Below are positions 56,948-64,000 of a stretch of DNA of 64,000 nt, in pieces (positions within the stretch are counted from its first letter, which is position 1; the number at the start of each line of letters is the position of its first letter). Both the position numbers and the translations under genes were made by a program. The notes beneath the pieces are model-generated. The model made no database searches. It saw only the letters and a program-made list of their open reading frames with translations, and had not been told where the DNA came from. Origin of the DNA: Actinomycetospora termitidis (GTDB lineage: Bacteria; Actinomycetota; Actinomycetes; Mycobacteriales; Pseudonocardiaceae); contig NZ_JASVWF010000001.1 in the NCBI RefSeq assembly GCF_030286555.1, forward strand, positions 1,240,001 to 1,304,000, written 5' to 3'.

Positions 56948-58312
56948 TCACGGGTGACGCAGCCGTCCCAGGAGTCGGTCCTCCAAGTCACGCCATCGGG
57001 CGGATTCACGCGTGAACGGCGGGCTCGGGGTGAGCCGGTTCGGGTCCGGGCGCAGGACGAAGGAGACCAACCACCCCAGCGACTCCGACGGCGCGAGCGC
57101 CTCCCGGGTCTCGGTGTCGCCCGCCCAGTCGGCGGCGTCGAGGACCAGTTCGACGGCGAGCTCGAGCTGCGACGGGTCGACCGCCTGCGGGCCCTCGAGC
57201 AGGTCCTCGCCGAGGCCGAGCAGGACGTAGCGGTTCTCCGGGGCGATCTCGACCTCCAGGTCCCCGCCCACGGCCGCCGTCAGGACGTCGGCCCAGGTGG
57301 AGACCTCCGCGAGGTCGTGACCGTCGGCGCCCTCGTCGGCGAGCCAGGTCCGCAGGGCCCGCGCGTTCGCGAACACCTCGATCCGGCCGTCGCGGCCGAG
57401 GAAGACCGGCTCGTCGTCGAGGAAGCACCGCAGGGTGATCACCTCGCCCTCGGGCGACAGGATCGAGATCGGGTCGATGCCGACCTCCTCCCAGAACCCG
57501 GGCTCGGGCTCCTCGGCCTCGTCGACGAGGTCGGTGCGCACCGACTCGCCCGCGGTGTCGGCGCGGACGTCGCCCGGGGCGTCGGCGAGCGGCCCGTCGA
57601 CGGCGGAGTCCTGCGGGTCGCTCACCACCGCCTCGGGATCGGCGGGGTGGTTCTCGGCGTCCTCCGCGCTGCCGGACTCCGCGTCCTCCGGATCGTCGAT
57701 CGGGGCGGGGGTCGCCGTCGCCCGCAGCTTCGCGGCGAGCTCGGTGTCCACCTCCGGGACGGTCACGAGGGAATCGAGGGCGTCGACGACCTCGTCCCAG
57801 CGTTCGGCCACGACGTCGGCGAGCTCGGCCCACCGGGCCTCGCCGTCGCGGCCGCCGAACACGGCCACGCCCTGCTGCAGCGCGGCGAAGGACTGCGTCG
57901 AGCCGAGGATCTCGAGGACGACGGTCAGGTCGCACACCTCGGCCAGCGACCGGGTCATCTCGGTGATCTCGGCGAGGTCGTCGACCGACCAGGTGTCGGG
58001 CTCCTCGGCGACGAGCTCGGGCACGCCGACGACGTCGTAGCGCTGGATGTCCTCGGGGGTCAGCTCGTCGACCGTGAGCCCGCCGACGACGGACCAGGCG
58101 GGATGGTCGACCAGGTCGTGCTCGAGCCCGTCGGCGTCACTGGTCCGGATCCACGCGGCGAGGTCGGCGGCGTCGGCGAAGGCGAACACGTGGTCGTCGT
58201 CGCCGAGGAACGCCTCCCACTCCTCGCCGTCCTCCCGCCAGCGCGGCGCCCAGAGGGTGACCAGGTCCCCACCCGTCAGTGCGAGGGTGATCGGGACGAT
58301 GTCCTGGGCCAC
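56948..58312 (-). CDS. Actinobacterial 'primosomal protein'-annotated family, function unknown
   Basis: The product is 454 aa, strongly acidic. The N-terminus (MAQDIVPITLALTGGDLVTL, then WAPRWREDGEEWEAFLGDDD) matches the actinobacterial family that databases often call 'primosomal protein', though I know no evidence for a primosome role. Two similar lobes are seen: N-terminal WEAFLGDDDHVFAFADAADLAAWIR and C-terminal EPVFLGRDGRIEVFANARALRTWLA, so it is an internal duplication with an acidic linker (residues ~200-270). No catalytic motif is visible. Divergent from the dehalogenase. Confidence 0.75.
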   Translation of the reverse strand: MAQDIVPITLALTGGDLVTLWAPRWREDGEEWEAFLGDDDHVFAFADAADLAAWIRTSDADGLEHDLVDHPAWSVVGGLTVDELTPEDIQRYDVVGVPELVAEEPDTWSVDDLAEITEMTRSLAEVCDLTVVLEILGSTQSFAALQQGVAVFGGRDGEARWAELADVVAERWDEVVDALDSLVTVPEVDTELAAKLRATATPAPIDDPEDAESGSAEDAENHPADPEAVVSDPQDSAVDGPLADAPGDVRADTAGESVRTDLVDEAEEPEPGFWEEVGIDPISILSPEGEVITLRCFLDDEPVFLGRDGRIEVFANARALRTWLADEGADGHDLAEVSTWADVLTAAVGGDLEVEIAPENRYVLLGLGEDLLEGPQAVDPSQLELAVELVLDAADWAGDTETREALAPSESLGWLVSFVLRPDPNRLTPSPPFTRESARWRDLEDRLLGRLRHP

Positions 58313-58457: not shown

Positions 58458-59378
58458 GTGCGGCTGCTGCGGACCCCGGACGAGCGATTCGCCGGCCTCG
58501 CCGGCTTCGGCCACGAGCCCGTGTACGTGGAGGTCTCCGATCCCGACGGCGGGTCCCCGGTCCGGGTCGCGACCTACCGGGTCGGTCCCGACGGCGCCGG
58601 CCCGACGGTGCTGGTGCTGCACGGCGAGCCGACGTGGTCCTACCTGTACCGCTCCGTCCTCGACACGCTGGCGGGCGCCGGGGTGCGCGCCGTCGCCGTC
58701 GACCTGGTCGGGTTCGGCCGGTCGGACAAGCCGGCGGAGGTGGCCGACCACAGCTACGCCCGGCACGTCGCATGGGTGCGGGAGGCGGTCGTCGACGCCC
58801 TCGGCCTGGACGACCTCGTGCTGCTCGGGCAGGACTGGGGCGGGCTGATCGGCCTGCGTCTCGTGGCCGAGGCCCCGGAACGGTTCCGCGCCGTCGTCGC
58901 CGCCAACACCGGTCTGCCCACCGGCGACCACGACATGCCGGAGCCGTGGTGGCGGTTCCGGCGCGCGGTGGAGCGGGCGGAGTCGCTCGACGTCGGACGC
59001 CTGGTCGCCTCCGGGTGCGCCCGCGGGCTCGATCCGGCGGCGCGGGCGGCCTACGACGCGCCGTTCCCGGACGAGTCGTACAAGGCGGGTCCGCGGGCGA
59101 TGCCGCTGCTGGTGCCGACCCGGCCGGACGACCCCGAGACGGAGGCCAACCGCGCGGCCTGGGAGGCCCTCGGCCGCTACGCGCGACCGTTCCTCCTGGC
59201 GTTCTCCGACTCCGACCCGATAACCGGGCCGATGGCCCCCGTGCTGCGCGAGCACGTCCCGGGCGCCGTGGGCCTCGAGCACGCGGTGCTGCACGGGGCG
59301 GGGCACTTCCTCCAGGAGGACGCGGGCAGCGAACTGGCCTCGATCGTGGTCGGACTGGTCCGTGAGGTCGCTCGTTAG
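58458..59378 (+). CDS. Haloalkane dehalogenase (alpha/beta hydrolase)
   Basis: The product is 306 aa from GTG 58458 (MRLLRTPDERF, as in DhlA-like enzymes). HGEPTWSYLYR is the dehalogenase signature, with the first halide/oxyanion region. The nucleophile Asp lies in LGQDWGG, where the following Trp also binds halide. The acid is in SDSDPITG and the His in GAGHFLQED. All triad parts are present. It hydrolyses haloalkanes to alcohols; the substrate is unknown. It stands alone before the small secreted protein array, with no link apparent. Confidence 0.9.
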   Translation: MRLLRTPDERFAGLAGFGHEPVYVEVSDPDGGSPVRVATYRVGPDGAGPTVLVLHGEPTWSYLYRSVLDTLAGAGVRAVAVDLVGFGRSDKPAEVADHSYARHVAWVREAVVDALGLDDLVLLGQDWGGLIGLRLVAEAPERFRAVVAANTGLPTGDHDMPEPWWRFRRAVERAESLDVGRLVASGCARGLDPAARAAYDAPFPDESYKAGPRAMPLLVPTRPDDPETEANRAAWEALGRYARPFLLAFSDSDPITGPMAPVLREHVPGAVGLEHAVLHGAGHFLQEDAGSELASIVVGLVREVAR

Positions 59379-59446: not shown

Positions 59447-59474
59447 CGTGACCCCCGATCGTCGCCCCCGTTGA
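59447..59474 (+). promoter_or_regulatory. BldN-like promoter motif, array gene 1
   Basis: CGTGAC (59447-59452), 16 bp, CGTTGA (59469-59474), 70 bp before the start codon. The streptomycete sigma-BldN consensus, as I recall it, is CGTAAC-N16-CGTTGA. Confidence 0.6.
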
Positions 59475-59544
59475 GGCCGTCGTGATGGCGCGGACCCGCG
59501 ACCAGCGGGCCGTTGGACACCTCAGATTCCATGGGGGAATGAAC

Positions 59545-59952
59545 GTGTCGATGTTCCGCAAGACCGTGCTGGCGACGGCGATCATCGGGGCCGGCCTCGG
59601 CTCGATGTCCGGTGCGGCCTTCGCCGGGGACGACCCGGGCGACGGCGGCCACCACGGCAGCCACGGCAAGCACTGGGACGACTCGTCGAAGGACGGCGGC
59701 TGCAGCAACAAGGTCTCCGCCGAGTCGAAGAACGGCGCCGGGGACACGCTGGGCGACACCACCGGTGGCGACCAGGACCTCTCGGCCTCGAACCTCTGCC
59801 ACATCCTCACCGGCAACGAGATCCTGTCGAACAACAACATCGCCCTGCCGGGCGGGTCGATCGTCAACGGCGACACGCTGACCAAGACCCTGACCCGCAC
59901 GTCGACCTCGGACGAGTCGACCACGACGACGACGGGCGTTCCGGCGACCTGA
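59545..59952 (+). CDS. Small secreted two-cysteine Asn-rich protein, array gene 1
   Basis: A 135-aa precursor. I take GTG 59545 rather than ATG 59539, because it gives proper spacing from GGGGGA and aligns with the paralogues. Signal peptide MSMFRKTVLATAIIGAGLG... ends in GAAFA. The mature part has a His/Gly/Asp-rich segment, then CSN, GDTLGDTTGGDQD, the second Cys in SNLCHIL exactly 31 residues after the first, GNEILSNNN and IVNGD, ending in a Thr/Ser tail. It belongs to a seven-member family in this window. It should be exported; function is unknown. It has its own BldN-like promoter and hairpin. Confidence 0.88.
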   Translation: MSMFRKTVLATAIIGAGLGSMSGAAFAGDDPGDGGHHGSHGKHWDDSSKDGGCSNKVSAESKNGAGDTLGDTTGGDQDLSASNLCHILTGNEILSNNNIALPGGSIVNGDTLTKTLTRTSTSDESTTTTTGVPAT

Positions 59953-59998
59953 TCCGCACCGACTGCGGGCAGGCAGTCAGCTCGACCCGCACGACCTT

Positions 59999-60044
59999 CG
60001 GGCCGGCACCCCCGGGAACACGTTCCCGCTCGGGTGCCGGCCCG
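59999..60044 (+). terminator. Hairpin after array gene 1
   Basis: CGGGCCGGCACCC and GGGTGCCGGCCCG, a 13-bp perfect stem, followed by TTGTCGTTT, 47 bp after the stop. Confidence 0.85.
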
Positions 60045-60140
60045 TTGTCGTTTCCTGCTCCGTTCGGGTGAAGTGATTCGTCGGATCCCCTGCTCAACAC
60101 TCGATCGTGAAGATCGTCGTCGCCCGGATCGTCACCTGGC

Positions 60141-60168
60141 CGTGACCTTCACTCGATCGAGGCGTTGA
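60141..60168 (+). promoter_or_regulatory. BldN-like promoter motif, array gene 2
   Basis: CGTGAC (60141-60146), exactly 16 bp, CGTTGA (60163-60168), 88 bp before GTG 60257. Confidence 0.6.
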
Positions 60169-60256
60169 AGTCACCGGGTCGTGATGCGTAGCCGTGTCGC
60201 GACGCACGGTGCGCGATCCGCGCGATCGTGCTCGACCACGAACCAGGGGAGAAAGA

Positions 60257-60622
60257 GTGTCTGCCTTCCGTAAGACCGTCCTGACGACCGCCATCATCGG
60301 CGCCGGCCTCGCGTCCACCTCGGGTGCCGCGTTCGCGTCCGAGCACCACGACGGCGGCCACGAGAAGGCCTCGTCCGGCTGCTCCAACCTCGTCAAGGCC
60401 GACAACTCGAACGGCACCGGCAAGGTGACCCTCGGCGGCGTCCTCGGCGGCAGCCAGAACGTGTCCCCGAGCAACGTCTGCGACAACTTCTCGGGCAACT
60501 CGTTCCTCAACGGCAACAACCTGGCCGGTGGGGACATCACCAACGGCGACACCGAGTCGGTGAGCATCAACAAGGCGGAGTCCACGAGCATCGTCAAGAC
60601 GATCACCGCGAGCATCCTCTAG
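60257..60622 (+). CDS. Small secreted two-cysteine Asn-rich protein, array gene 2
   Basis: A 121-aa precursor from GTG 60257 (GGGGAGAAAGA upstream). Signal peptide MSAFRKTVLTTAIIGAGLAS... cleaved after AFA. The mature part begins SEHHDGGHEK, then CSN, LGGVLGGSQNVSPSNVC (second Cys 32 residues after the first), GNSFLNGNN and ITNGD, ending in a Ser/Ile tail without the Thr run. Together with gene 3 it forms the GGSQNVSPSNVC subgroup; that segment recalls the chaplin segment ending NVCGN, but the overall match is weak. Confidence 0.88.
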   Translation: MSAFRKTVLTTAIIGAGLASTSGAAFASEHHDGGHEKASSGCSNLVKADNSNGTGKVTLGGVLGGSQNVSPSNVCDNFSGNSFLNGNNLAGGDITNGDTESVSINKAESTSIVKTITASIL

Positions 60623-60834
60623 AGCTCCCGCCGCGGCGACGTCGGCCGCCGGCCCGCTCCGACTCCCCCCGAGCGCCGGAGCGTCGATGGCCCCACGTCT
60701 CCGGCCCGGCCGGGCTCAGCCCCGGTCGGGCTGTCGCACGTTCCCGATCCGATGCCCGTCGGCAGCCGACTCCCATACGGCGCCCGGACACCCGTGATCG
60801 ACCCACTTCACTTCGCTCACCAGGAAGAGTGACC

Positions 60835-61233
60835 ATGTCGATGCTCCGCAAGACCGTCCTGACGACCGCCATCATCGGTGCGGGCCTCGCCTCCACCACG
60901 GGCGCCGCCTTCGCCGGCGACTGCCCGACCGACAGCGGCAAGAGCCACTCGTCGCACGACTCGCACGGCAAGTCCCACGAGGGCTCGAAGGGCGGCTGCT
61001 CCAACGCCGTCGACGCCCACAACTCGAACGGCTCCGGCGACATCCTCGGCGGCATCGTCACCGGCGGCTCGCAGAACGTCTCGCCGAGCAACGTGTGCGG
61101 GAACTTCAGCAACAACCAGTTCCTCAGCAACAACAACGTGTCCCTCTTCGGGAACGTGCACAACGGCGACACCAAGGAAGTCTCGAAGACCGACTCGAAG
61201 GTCAAGATCATCGACATCGCGAAGTCGTTCTAG
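60835..61233 (+). CDS. Small secreted two-cysteine Asn-rich protein, array gene 3
   Basis: A 132-aa precursor from ATG 60835; GTG 60829 is too close to AGGAAG to be the start. Signal peptide MSMLRKTVLTTAIIGAGLAS... ending GAAFA. The mature part has an extra Cys at its start (GDCPTDSG), a Ser/His/Lys-rich stretch, then CSN, TGGSQNVSPSNVCGN (Cys-Cys 32 apart), QFLSNNN and VHNGD, and a Lys-rich tail. It is closest to gene 2. It lacks the BldN-like motif seen before five of its paralogues, so its control differs. A strong hairpin follows. Confidence 0.88.
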   Translation: MSMLRKTVLTTAIIGAGLASTTGAAFAGDCPTDSGKSHSSHDSHGKSHEGSKGGCSNAVDAHNSNGSGDILGGIVTGGSQNVSPSNVCGNFSNNQFLSNNNVSLFGNVHNGDTKEVSKTDSKVKIIDIAKSF

Positions 61234-61257
61234 GCTGACGCCTGCACGACACCCTCG

Positions 61258-61294
61258 ACGGCCGGTCCGGAGTCACGCGCTCCGGGCCGGCCGT
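61258..61294 (+). terminator. Hairpin after array gene 3
   Basis: ACGGCCGGTCCGGAG and CTCCGGGCCGGCCGT, 15 bp with one G-T pair and a 7-nt loop, starting 25 bp after the stop. Confidence 0.85.
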
Positions 61295-61528
61295 TCGTCG
61301 TCTCAGGCGAAGATCCTGTTCCGCCGAGCGAGGTGGGGCGGGGACCGATCGGTCCGCTCCCCCTCGTCGGGATCTTGGGCCGCGGGGACACCTCGAGCGG
61401 GCCCTGGGGGCTGCCGCAGGGCCCGCCGAATAGCTCTGGGTGCCCGTTCGCCCGTGGGACCTCCCGTTGTCAGTGGCATCGCGCGCTCTCGTGGCTGCGC
61501 GATGCCACTGACGTCAGCGCCCGCCGGT

Positions 61529-61742
61529 GAGCCGCCGGCCGATCGACGGTGGCGTTCCACTCCCACCGCATGCGTGCAGGGCGCCATCGTCACCTCGCGA
61601 GCGGCGAGTGACCGGACGCTTCATTAGGACGCCCCGTCAGCAAGCCGCCGGGCCGGATCGACGATGGCGTTCCACTCCCACCGCATGCGTGCAGGGCGCC
61701 ATCGTGATCTCGCGAGCGGCGAGTGAGGGACCGGACGCTTCA
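61529..61742. repeat. Two-copy tandem repeat of about 95-100 bp, each holding a hairpin
   Basis: Copy 1 (61529-61623) and copy 2 (61642-61742) match closely over TCCACTCCCACCGCATGC and the stretch around CTCGCGAGCGGCGAGTGA; the offset is 115 bp. Each carries a hairpin, GACGGTGGCG/CGCCATCGTC in copy 1 and ACGATGGCG/CGCCATCGT in copy 2. It lies in the noncoding gap before array gene 4. It may be a duplicated terminator or protein-binding region. Confidence 0.75.
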
Positions 61743-61876
61743 CCTGAAGATCCCGGACGAGTGACGCAGTGTCATCGCCGCCACGATCGCCCCGCCGGGC
61801 CACCAGGGCAGACGAGGAACATCGTCGCAGGTCAGCGATTCGTTGCTCCACGAACGGGCGAAGGTCGTGACGGAGC

Positions 61877-61905
61877 CGTGACCTCGCTTCGTCCCCCCGC
61901 GTTGA
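61877..61905 (+). promoter_or_regulatory. BldN-like promoter motif, array gene 4
   Basis: CGTGAC (61877-61882), 17 bp, CGTTGA (61900-61905), 76 bp before ATG 61982. It is preceded by CGAACGGGCGAAGG, also seen before genes 6 and 7. Confidence 0.55.
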
Positions 61906-61981
61906 GCGGACTGTGACCGACCGGCGCACAGCGTCTCGCTGCGGCCGGACCGAGAGCTCCACGATTCGGGGGAATCCTGAG

Positions 61982-62341
61982 ATGCAGATGTTCCGCAAGG
62001 CCGCCGTCGCCACCGTCATCCTGGGCGCCGGGCTCGCCTCCACCGCGGGTGTCGCGATGGCCCACGAGCACCACGGCGACGCCGGCAAGAGCTGCTCCAA
62101 CGCCGCCGCGGCCAAGAGCAGCAACGGTGCCGACAAGACGCTGGGCGACACCACCGGTGGGGACCAGGACTTCGCCCTGGACAACACCTGCGACATCCTC
62201 AACGGCAACGAGATCCTGAGCGACAACAACGCCGCCACCGCTGGCACGATCACCAACGGCGACACCACGACGGTGGACGAGACCTCGACCGACACCTCCT
62301 CCTCCAGCATCGTCACGACCCTCACGGGCCTGCTGGGCTGA
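61982..62341 (+). CDS. Small secreted two-cysteine Asn-rich protein, array gene 4
   Basis: A 119-aa precursor from ATG 61982 (GGGGGAA 7 bp upstream). Signal peptide MQMFRKAAVATVILGAGLAS..., ending GVAMA. Mature start HEHHGDAGKSCSN, then LGDTTGGDQDF, second Cys 32 positions along (DNTCDILNGNEILSDNN), TITNGD and a Thr/Ser-rich tail. Very close to gene 6, so a recent duplication. The family is predicted to lie outside the cell. BldN-like promoter and own hairpin. Confidence 0.88.
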   Translation: MQMFRKAAVATVILGAGLASTAGVAMAHEHHGDAGKSCSNAAAAKSSNGADKTLGDTTGGDQDFALDNTCDILNGNEILSDNNAATAGTITNGDTTTVDETSTDTSSSSIVTTLTGLLG

Positions 62342-62358
62342 GCGAGCCTCCTCTCGTC

Positions 62359-62429
62359 GGGCCGGACCACCACGCACTGCCCCGGGTGCCCCCGGGGCTC
62401 AGCTCCCCAGCTGCGTGAGGGTCCGGCCC
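62359..62429 (+). terminator. Hairpin after array gene 4
   Basis: GGGCCGGACC (62359-62368) and GGTCCGGCCC (62420-62429) with an inner CCCCGGG/CCCGGGG stem; starts 17 bp after the stop and is followed by TTCGTCC. Confidence 0.7.
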
Positions 62430-62563
62430 TTCGTCCGTCCGTCACTCTTTCGGCGGGCCTTGCAAAAATCGCGTACAACGCCGCCGTGATGCGGCGATAC
62501 CCCTCACGAGACCGGAACGCGATCTGCTTTCCGGGCAGAGCCGGAACTCGTGGGGGAACAGTC

Positions 62564-62914
62564 ATGCAGAACATCCTCGGTCGTGCCGCCGTCGCCGCCG
62601 CCGTGGTCGGTGTGGGAATCGCCTCGACCGCCGGAATCGCGAGCGCGGCGCCGTCGGGATCGTGCTCGAACTCGGTCAAGGCCGTCTCGAAGACGTCGGT
62701 CGGTCGCACGCTGGGCAACGTCACCGGCGGGTCGCAGACCATCAACGTCTCGAACTCGTGCCACAACGGGAACGGCAACGTCTACGGCAGCGGGAACAAC
62801 ACCGCGTCCGGGGGCGGGACGATCCGCAACGGCGACCAGACCACGATCAACCGCACCATCACCCGGACCACGTCCATCGACGCGTTCTTCGGGCCGGGCT
62901 TCCCGTTCAACTGA
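62564..62914 (+). CDS. Small secreted two-cysteine Asn-rich protein, array gene 5 (divergent)
   Basis: A 116-aa precursor from ATG 62564 (GGGGGAA upstream). Signal peptide MQNILGRAAVAAAVVGVGIAS..., ending IASAA; it is less like the others. The mature part lacks the His-rich start, going directly to SCSN, then LGNVTGGSQTINVSNSC (Cys-Cys 31 apart), GNGNVYGSGNN and TIRNGD, and ends aromatic (FFGPGFPFN). It is the most divergent member and lacks the BldN-like motif. A canonical hairpin with a T-tract follows. Confidence 0.87.
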   Translation: MQNILGRAAVAAAVVGVGIASTAGIASAAPSGSCSNSVKAVSKTSVGRTLGNVTGGSQTINVSNSCHNGNGNVYGSGNNTASGGGTIRNGDQTTINRTITRTTSIDAFFGPGFPFN

Positions 62915-62928
62915 CCCACTGCACGACG

Positions 62929-62962
62929 ATGGCCGGTACCCGCACTCGCGGGTGCCGGCCAT
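62929..62962 (+). terminator. Rho-independent-type terminator after array gene 5
   Basis: ATGGCCGGTACCCGC and GCGGGTGCCGGCCAT, 15 bp with one G-T and a 4-nt loop, followed by TTCTCGTT. It is the clearest intrinsic terminator in the window. Confidence 0.9.
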
Positions 62963-62992
62963 TTCTCGTTCGGGCGAAACGCGCTCGGACTT

Positions 62993-63021
62993 CGTGACGG
63001 CGGGCGGCGCGGTCCCGTTGG
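62993..63021 (+). promoter_or_regulatory. BldN-like promoter motif, array gene 6 (one mismatch)
   Basis: CGTGAC (62993-62998), 17 bp, CGTTGG (63016-63021), 86 bp before ATG 63108, with CGGGCGAA upstream as before genes 4 and 7. Confidence 0.45.
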
Positions 63022-63107
63022 GCCGGACGATCCCGCCGTCCGCCCGGTGCCCCCGAGCGCCGCGGAGGCGGGGACGTCCGTACCGACGACCCGGGGGTTC
63101 CACCATC

Positions 63108-63449
63108 ATGTCCGTCTTCCGCAAGACCGTCCTGGCCAGCGCGATCCTGGGTGCCGGCCTCGCGTCGACCGCGGGCGTCGCGACCGCGCACGAGCACCAC
63201 GACGCGGGCAAGAGCTGCTCCAACGCCGCCGAGGCCGCCTCGAAGAACTCCTCGGGCAAGTCGCTCGGCGACACCACGGGTGGCGACCAGGACCTCGCGG
63301 CCTCGAACACCTGCGACATCCTCAACGGCAACCAGATCCTGAGCGACAACAACGCCGCGACCGCCGGCACGATCGTCAACGGCGACACGACCGACATCAC
63401 GCGCACCCGCACCAGCTCCGACACGAGCACCACGACGACGGCGAGCTGA
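63108..63449 (+). CDS. Small secreted two-cysteine Asn-rich protein, array gene 6
   Basis: A 113-aa precursor from ATG 63108. Signal peptide MSVFRKTVLASAILGAGLAS..., ending GVATA. Mature HEHHDAGKSCSN, LGDTTGGDQDL, SNTCDILNGNQILSDNN, TIVNGD and a Thr/Ser tail (SDTSTTTTAS). Closest to gene 4. The two Cys are 31 residues apart. BldN-like motif with one change in the -10 element, and a 14-bp hairpin after the stop. Confidence 0.88.
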   Translation: MSVFRKTVLASAILGAGLASTAGVATAHEHHDAGKSCSNAAEAASKNSSGKSLGDTTGGDQDLAASNTCDILNGNQILSDNNAATAGTIVNGDTTDITRTRTSSDTSTTTTAS

Positions 63450-63474
63450 CGCAGGTCCCCACCGCGCCACCCAC

Positions 63475-63517
63475 CGGGCCGGTGTCCGATCCCCACCGGG
63501 GGGCGGGCACCGGCCCG
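63475..63517 (+). terminator. Hairpin after array gene 6
   Basis: CGGGCCGGTGTCCG and CGGGCACCGGCCCG, 14 bp with one T-G, 26 bp after the stop. Confidence 0.85.
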
Positions 63518-63622
63518 TCGTCGTCGCACGGGAAGGGTGTCCGAGAAAAGCGTGGAGAAATAGGCCGAAAGCGCAGAGGTCTCGACGTGGAATTCACGAA
63601 CGGGCGAACGTCGTGATTGTCC

Positions 63623-63650
63623 CGTGACCCGGCAATGGGCCATCCGTTGA
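63623..63650 (+). promoter_or_regulatory. BldN-like promoter motif, array gene 7
   Basis: CGTGAC (63623-63628), exactly 16 bp, CGTTGA (63645-63650), 73 bp before ATG 63724, with CGAACGGGCGAACG upstream. Confidence 0.6.
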
Positions 63651-63723
63651 CTGCGACGTGGCCGATCATGCGTCGCATGGAACGGCGCACGACGACCGAC
63701 GACGACCTTCGGGGGAATACCAC

Positions 63724-64000
63724 ATGTCGATGCTGCGCAAGACCGTTCTCACCACCGCGATCATCGGGGCCGGCCTCGGTTCCATGTCCGGTGCCGCCTT
63801 CGCGTGGGACAACCACGGGCACGGCGACGCCAAGGGCTGCTCGAACGAGATCGCCGCGGCGGCCGAGAACGGCTCGGGCGACTCGCTGGGCGACACGACC
63901 GGCGGCGACCAGGCCCTCGACGCCAGCAACGTCTGCGACATCCTGAACGACAACTCGATCGGCAGCGAGAACAACGTCGCGACCGCCGGTGGCGCCATCC
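63724..64000 (+). CDS. Small secreted two-cysteine Asn-rich protein, array gene 7 (3' end cut by window)
   Basis: The first 92 residues are visible. Signal peptide MSMLRKTVLTTAIIGAGLGS..., ending GAAFA. The mature part starts WDNHGHGDAKGCSN, then LGDTTGGDQAL, SNVCDILNDNSIGSENN and the start of the Gly-rich turn. Cys-Cys distance 31. The upstream CGTGAC-N16-CGTTGA motif and GGGGGAA ribosome site match the other members. The array may continue beyond the window. Confidence 0.88.
   Translation, partial: MSMLRKTVLTTAIIGAGLGSMSGAAFAWDNHGHGDAKGCSNEIAAAAENGSGDSLGDTTGGDQALDASNVCDILNDNSIGSENNVATAGGAI

Follow-up and report, generated by a model that had tools for sequence, protein, structure and literature searches.

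Streptomyces aerial hyphae are coated by chaplins and rodlins, and the actinobacterial genus Actinomycetospora forms short spore chains. In published accounts, the chaplin and rodlin genes are described as being directed by sigma-BldN in Streptomyces (PMC4125116, PMC4255298), and the BldN motif is given as CGTAAC-N16-CGTTGA (PMC2375139). According to one of these, a review (PMC4255298), a few genera other than the streptomycetes and their closest relatives have chaplin-like proteins, obvious rodlins are restricted to streptomycetes, and convincing BldN orthologues are found only among morphologically complex genera. It is then a fair question what BldN controls outside Streptomyces. Here we describe a tandem array of nine related secreted-protein genes (g1 to g9) that begins in a 64,000-nucleotide stretch of Actinomycetospora termitidis DNA (the window, G000:C1:1240001-1304000, where G000 is the source genome, 6.56 Mb in 30 contigs). 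Its products are probably a family of small secreted proteins on the surface of aerial hyphae or spores, made under the control of sigma-BldN, a reading that we hold with moderate confidence.

The array and its products

An original prediction, made from the letters of the window, had proposed a seven-gene array for a secreted, two-cysteine, Asn-rich protein family, possibly one not yet described. The seven genes are present where they were placed and the array is real, but it comprises nine genes: g1 to g6 are complete inside the window, g7 is truncated by the window end, and g8 and g9 lie outside it.

59539..59952, plus strand: g1, precursor of 137 amino acids (aa), His/Asp/Gly-rich spacer, Cys55 and Cys87; orthologues in loci L054-L059
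60257..60622, plus strand: g2, 121 aa, Cys42 and Cys75; the fastest-evolving of the compared genes
60835..61233, plus strand: g3, 132 aa, three Cys; downstream of g2, own promoter match absent
61982..62341, plus strand: g4, 119 aa, Cys38 and Cys70
62564..62914, plus strand: g5, 116 aa; its signal peptide diverges from the others and its mature part is basic (isoelectric point 9.8)
63108..63449, plus strand: g6, 113 aa, Cys37 and Cys69
63724..64000 (window end), plus strand: g7, 139 aa; full gene L009:225-644 = G000:C1:1303724-1304143
L009:688-1047, beyond the window: g8, after g7
L009:1208-1567, beyond the window: g9, after g8

The nine precursors range from 113 to 139 aa rather than from 113 to 135 aa as first proposed. 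All nine have in common a predicted signal peptide, CSN, LG, GG-x-Q, the second core Cys, an NN segment and NGD, and the shared CSN, GG-x-Q, NN and NGD elements are thus as had been described. The near identity claimed for six signal peptides was overstated: GAGL is present in six of the first seven precursors, but [FL]RKTVL in only five (g1, g2, g3, g6 and g7), its place being taken by FRKAAV in g4 and LGRAAV in g5. The second core Cys, first placed 31-32 residues after the other, is 32 positions from it in g1 and g4-g9 and 33 in g2 and g3, so that 31-32 residues lie between the two; the third Cys of g3 is additional to this pair. The mature parts are Asn/Gly/Thr-rich with Ser/Thr-rich tails, and most of the nine have a segment of the HEHH or HHGSHGKHWDD type ahead of the first core Cys, whereas g5 and its orthologues have no His-rich spacer.

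A profile built from these same nine genes matched all of them in a search of the source genome (E 6.6e-40 to 4.4e-52). The common profile, the syntenic orthologues in six genomes and the substitution rates described below establish that the array is more than a chance assembly. The family has no described relative above the Pfam or NCBIfam cut-offs or in PDB, as had been proposed. Pfam gave no family for g1-g7 up to an E value of 10, and for 29 members up to an E value of 1 it gave five single-member matches only (best E 0.019), with neither the chaplin model PF03777 nor the curlin model, which we take Pfam to include, among them. NCBIfam matches to CpxP, His-Xaa-Ser and MAP_0585 were rejected as far below their cut-offs, and a profile of the mature parts matched no PDB chain.

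Candidate promoters and transcription units

The sequence CGTGACC-N15/16-CGTTGA, which read as CGTGAC-N16/17-CGTTGA is one base from the BldN consensus, is found upstream of g1, g2, g4 and g7, and a weaker match lies upstream of g6.

59447..59474, plus strand: g1 promoter match, CGTGACC-N15-CGTTGA
60141..60168, plus strand: g2 promoter match, CGTGACC-N15-CGTTGA; the 28 bp are identical in L054, L055, L058 and L059
61877..61905, plus strand: g4 promoter match, CGTGACC-N16-CGTTGA
63623..63650, plus strand: g7 promoter match, CGTGACC-N15-CGTTGA
62993..63021, plus strand: weak g6 promoter match, CGTGACG-N16-CGTTGG, score 15.3, a value reached by 0.9% of background windows

The exact motif occurs at 17 sites in 301,596 bp of DNA from the genus and at none in each of 20 dinucleotide shuffles. 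A shorter form, GTGACC-N15/16-CGTTG, has 28 sites, the 17 exact ones included, in 175,007 bp covering the seven array loci (the present one and L054-L059), and no site in 126,589 bp of other loci of the genus. Every one of the 28 lies on the coding strand with the start of an array gene 91-123 bp downstream. The short motif precedes g1 in six of the seven loci (not in L057), g2 and g4 in all seven, and g7, or whichever gene occupies its position, in all seven, as well as one extra gene of L059; in the six other loci, 23 of the 24 corresponding genes are preceded by the exact or the short motif. With a weight matrix derived from the array, g1, g2, g4 and g7 scored 25.7, 26.4, 25.7 and 24.6, the 99% level being 15.2 in 540 background windows, which were taken from Actinomycetospora even for the scoring of genes from presumed Streptomyces. 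None of the three g6 orthologues tested has the weak g6 match. Six of 37 chaplin genes of presumed Streptomyces origin exceeded the 99% level, and in these the motif lies at -85 to -90. The original prediction had likened the array proteins to chaplins and rodlins in role without reference to promoters, and the sigma-BldN-type matches lend that proposal independent support.

Several hairpins were found between the genes.

59999..60044, plus strand: hairpin after g1, -40.2 kcal/mol, probable terminator
61246..61301, plus strand: hairpin after g3, -38.9 kcal/mol, possible terminator
63475..63517, plus strand: hairpin after g6, -41.3 kcal/mol, possible terminator
63024-63080: hairpin between the weak g6 promoter match and g6, -41.2 kcal/mol

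In this search, which had no shuffle control, hairpins were strong after g1, g3, g6, g8 and g9 (-38.9 to -49.2 kcal/mol) and weaker after g2 (-27.5), g4 (-15.8) and g7 (-7.6 kcal/mol). A simple scan gave one plus-strand terminator-like site, part of the g1 hairpin, and no sigma-70-type promoter. The promoter matches and hairpins are consistent with the transcription units g1, g2-g3, g4-g5 and g7-g8, in which the paired genes would be co-transcribed; g6 and g9 are left without a clear promoter in this scheme. The long gap between g3 and g4 also holds a 71-nt direct repeat (window 61541-61611 and 61656-61726), whose copies are 96% identical and 115 bp apart, together with a perfect inverted repeat of 16 nt (hairpin 61469-61512), perhaps the remnant of a small mobile element or palindromic repeat.

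BldN and an RsbN-like protein in Actinomycetospora

The BldN query sequence was confirmed against PDB 6dxo_A. It has an orthologue in the source genome (G000:C1:1018312-1018848, 56% identity), and at E<=1e-20 it gave a single match in each of the 13 Actinomycetospora genomes searched and in three of three other Pseudonocardiaceae; two presumed Streptomyces genomes had two matches each (best 98-99% identity), and one genome of another family had none at this threshold. Directly after bldN in the source genome is an RsbN-like gene, encoding a candidate anti-sigma factor that is 26% identical (E 2e-24) to the neighbour of Streptomyces bldN and had no match in PDB. The rsbN promoter of S. venezuelae is BldN-dependent according to PMC4255298. 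GTAACC-N15-CGTTC is present in seven of 13 Actinomycetospora bldN loci, directly preceding the RsbN-like gene in the three loci that were read, and GTAACC-N16-CGTTG in both Streptomyces loci. By eye, GTCACC-N15-CGTTC, one base from the Actinomycetospora form, lies upstream of a chaplin gene of the genus (that of G013, see below). This candidate rsbN promoter is an internal hint at the sequence that the sigma factor may read in Actinomycetospora, and we infer that the sigma-BldN orthologue would also read the array promoters.

A further GTGACC-N15-CGTTG site lies at G000:C1:1191999-1192024, before the gene for a LuxR-type response regulator (L226:837-1430(+)) that presumably resembles BldM, a classical BldN target.

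Conservation and distribution of the array

Homologues exist outside this strain: six further Actinomycetospora genomes have syntenic arrays (L054-L059) at the same place, flanked by a haloalkane dehalogenase-like hydrolase gene on one side and by an MDMPI-like gene, then upp, metG and tatD, on the other. L054 and L055 have nine genes each and keep the order of g1 and g4-g9; L056 and L057 have eight each, and L058 and L059, with five and six, are more diverged. The g2 and g3 positions of other species are occupied by a strongly diverged form (such as GSQGAIG..NVCDVLNNN) that still joins the core by profile comparison (97.6%). The ratio of nonsynonymous to synonymous substitution rates (dN/dS) of window genes against their orthologues, a comparison that left out g3, was 0.20-0.27 for g5, which is under the strongest purifying selection among the compared array genes, 0.34-0.82 for g1, g4 and g6-g9, and 0.80-1.54 for g2; it was 0.17 for the neighbouring hydrolase. 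The proteins are therefore under moderate constraint, with one fast-changing position (g2).

With the whole-precursor profile, 17 of 18 genomes of the genus matched at E<=1e-3 and none of 43 genomes of other genera did. Since the match covered only the signal peptide region in nine of the 17, we rely on the stricter counts: eight of the 18 matched at E<=1e-9, and a mature-only profile run on 390 genomes of the family matched the same eight Actinomycetospora genomes and none of the 372 Pseudonocardiaceae genomes from other genera. A genome contig scan with a six-gene alignment gave three loci, all in Actinomycetospora (A. sp. NBRC 106378, A. chiangmaiensis DSM 45062, whose array is in L056/L081, and A. 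soli SF1); it relied on a pair of short peptide patterns and has little power to detect distant relatives. So far, then, the predicted family has been found only in Actinomycetospora. Among the literature matches listed for chaplins, rodlins, BldN and Actinomycetospora, consisting of titles and the starts of abstracts and including few subscription papers, none described it.

The patchy occurrence within the genus and the fast divergence at the g2 and g3 positions would suit matrix or adhesion proteins secreted by the vegetative mycelium, serving in biofilms or in attachment to soil or plants, with paralogue diversification driven by the environment and a promoter read by another extracytoplasmic function sigma factor of similar motif. 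Hydrophilic, Asn/Thr/Ser-rich sequences fit such a role, as does the occurrence, at other sites of the genomes, of larger proteins that carry the same domain but lack Cys (see below). However, the promoter motif agrees with the BldN consensus, the genus's own candidate rsbN promoter has equal spacing with one base different in GTRACC, and some chaplin genes are preceded by the same motif; we regard the matrix or adhesion role as unlikely, while giving it some weight. Being a tandem set of small secreted paralogues, the array could also be taken for secreted antagonistic (bacteriocin-like) peptides or phage-derived products, but the housekeeping flanks are syntenic, g6 had no match in plasmids, and only one of 29 members matched a phage family in PHROGs (E 0.005). 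We find this origin scarcely credible.

The neighbouring genes on the hydrolase side are as follows; the SatS-like gene keeps its syntenic place in each of the six other array loci.

58491..59378, plus strand: haloalkane dehalogenase-like alpha/beta hydrolase, a conserved flank not considered an array member
56951-58312, minus strand, adjoining the hydrolase: SatS-like (mycobacterial export chaperone), NCBIfam NF050072, 396 bits against a cut-off of 700

In a region not included among the array loci read (G013:C210, from a genome that is 59% complete), two of the four array members found hold one stop codon each.

Comparison with chaplins and rodlins

Chaplins (ChpA-C domain, PF03777) resemble the array proteins in being small, secreted, two-Cys proteins with several paralogues, and some of their genes carry the same promoter motif. 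They differ in having a hydrophobic domain with VNVCGN...GLLNPAFGNxC spacing, whereas the array proteins are hydrophilic, with core Cys 32-33 positions apart, tails rich in Ser and Thr and, in most of them, a His-rich spacer. Rodlins (RdlA/RdlB) are secreted, moderately hydrophilic and have two Cys, and the control by sigma-BldN reported for them in Streptomyces is what we propose for the array; the design of NGD plus a Thr tail is absent from the rodlins examined.

Homology to either group was not detectable. The comparison sets came from presumed Streptomyces genomes and held 36 chaplin domains and seven rodlins, the latter after two fragments shorter than 60 aa had been removed from an initial nine; the array profiles omitted members missed by the member pattern (one each in L055 and L058, two each in L056 and L059, and three in L057), and g3, also missed, was added by hand. 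In hhalign the core profile gave 0.4% to chaplins and 1.8% to rodlins, the reversed controls giving 0.4% and 0.1%, and all array members together gave 1.1% to rodlins, in agreement with the original view that there is no clear match to either. A likeness seen by eye between LGDTTGGDQ and a rodlin FGNSATxGDMSPQ stretch was rejected, having no support from hhalign.

The source genome also encodes four chaplin-like paralogues with the pattern VNVCxNDVPVNVLGVQVPVQD (G000:C1:322081-322383(-), C11:711134-711433(+), C26:353142-353501(-) and C29:277165-277482(-)). Proteins of this kind have signal peptides similar to those of the array proteins, are small with two Cys, and come from the same genomes. 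Unlike the array proteins, they resemble chaplins in profile comparison (78-88%, over 18-23 columns, against 4.3% to the array family) and have no clear sigma-BldN-type promoter; PF03777 was not found by Pfam in those scanned. Relatives occur in other Pseudonocardiaceae, and in three species without the array the genes form adjacent pairs (L066, L067 and L068). PF03777 itself had no match in the source genome at E<=1e-3 and was over the cut-off in five of 17 other genomes of the genus, in two of which the chaplin genes were read; in a control of the model, 14 of 148 genomes of the class matched at E<=1e-8.

These comparisons bear on the possibility that the array proteins are highly diverged chaplins or rodlins missed by profile methods. 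The promoter of the same type speaks for it, as do intermediate-looking members in L058 and L059 (e.g. GGDNVAVPVNVCHVLNDN), which reached 10.7% to chaplins where the reversed control gave 0.9%. The core profile, however, stays near its reversed controls whereas the chaplin-like paralogues reach 78-88%, and both Cys spacing and hydropathy differ; such a descent is in our judgement very unlikely.

A related domain without cysteines

Seven larger secreted proteins of the genus, from open reading frames of 459-680 aa, carry a homologous domain (hhalign 99.3%) that has no Cys, and the domain therefore does not depend on a disulfide. It shares LGDTTGG ... NGN..LSGNN ... NG(D/N) with the array proteins; the larger proteins differ from these in length, in the lack of Cys and in long Gly/Asp/Thr/Ser-rich repeats.

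L060:6006-7496 (plus strand), L061, L069, L070 and L071: larger Cys-less proteins with Gly/Thr/Asp-rich repeats after the domain; VDADVPVLSDSDSGDS units occur in some

Downstream of the larger gene, all five of these loci encode a small secreted protein rich in alanine. The promoter match was absent from four of five larger genes tested and borderline in the fifth (L069).

The HEHH or HHGSHGKHWDD-type segments in most of the nine array proteins raise the alternative of metal-binding or stress-responsive envelope proteins, in which the His/Asp/Gly-rich segment would bind metal and the Cys pair would be redox-active. Against this, g5 and its orthologues do not have the His-rich spacer, the Cys-less paralogues retain the rest of the domain, and the neighbours examined (hydrolase, SatS-like, MDMPI-like, upp, metG and tatD) include no metal transporter or regulator. 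This function seems to us quite unlikely, more so than the matrix or adhesion role.

Discussion

If the array does encode surface proteins of aerial hyphae or spores, it could work as follows. At the onset of aerial growth the RsbN-like anti-sigma factor would free the sigma-BldN orthologue, which would then recognise CGTGACC-N15/16-CGTTGA before g1, g2(-g3), g4(-g5) and g7(-g8). The precursors would be exported by Sec and cut after the Ala-x-Ala region, and the two cysteines may pair outside the cell. The Asn/Gly-rich domains and Ser/Thr-rich tails would finally form an exoskeletal layer on the hyphal or spore wall, beside chaplin-like proteins. Of the elements of this scheme, the genes with their signal peptides, their conservation, the promoter matches and the presence of the sigma factor and of a candidate anti-sigma factor are evident from sequence, and the assignment of the promoters to sigma-BldN is strongly indicated.

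Several results weigh against this reading. One group concerns the promoter: g3, g5, g8 and g9 have no match by the weight matrix and g6 a weak one, 31 of the 37 chaplin genes of presumed Streptomyces origin fall below the 99% level, and none of seven rodlin genes reaches it (three reach 95%). Nor do any of the four chaplin-like paralogues of the source genome, the scores being 14.0 for C26 (1.3% of windows), 7.3 for C29 and -1.4 for C1, with C11 at 2.9% on a second matrix. A looser form of the motif, with the last base open, has 53 sites scattered over the source genome, many of them chance matches; they include the four array promoters, one site before the RsbN-like gene and one before the LuxR-type response regulator, and the two sites of the backward-read control are not a fair background for them. 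A second group concerns distribution. The family is absent from ten of the 18 genomes of the genus (two of the ten only 83-84% complete) and is thus not essential to it. A clear chaplin of 73 residues (APTNTCGNTVNVIAQLNPAFGNSCTNG; L072:1109-1330(+), G013:C376) is encoded in G013, which also has array genes, and a partial chaplin-like protein (L076:820-1659(+), G009:C45) in G009, which has them too; because chaplin and array coexist in G013, the array does not merely stand in for chaplins. Finally, the mature array proteins are hydrophilic, with a mean grand average of hydropathy of -0.56 against +0.36 for chaplins and -0.17 for rodlins, which makes a hydrophobic surfactant role unlikely, and there is no confident predicted fold from two AlphaFold2 models: the mean predicted local distance difference test score was 57.8 for mature g6 and 46.9, with two low-confidence strands, for the Cys-less domain. 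As to the beta-rich or amyloid-like nature suggested in the original prediction, the evidence points neither way: both models are of low confidence, and the mature proteins are hydrophilic, unlike chaplins.

A bolder form of the surface-protein reading is that part of Actinomycetospora evolved its own exoskeletal family under sigma-BldN, unrelated to chaplins and rodlins: disulfide-bonded, Asn/Thr-rich, hydrophilic and with multiple paralogues. We put this forward tentatively and with some doubt, since the finding of a chaplin in an array-bearing species makes it less likely. If true, the switch would have been conserved while new coat material supplements or partly replaces the old. BldN of Actinomycetospora appears to point at a secreted protein family that is different and restricted to the genus, and the promoter motif may offer a handle for finding exoskeletal genes through their regulation where sequence homology fails.

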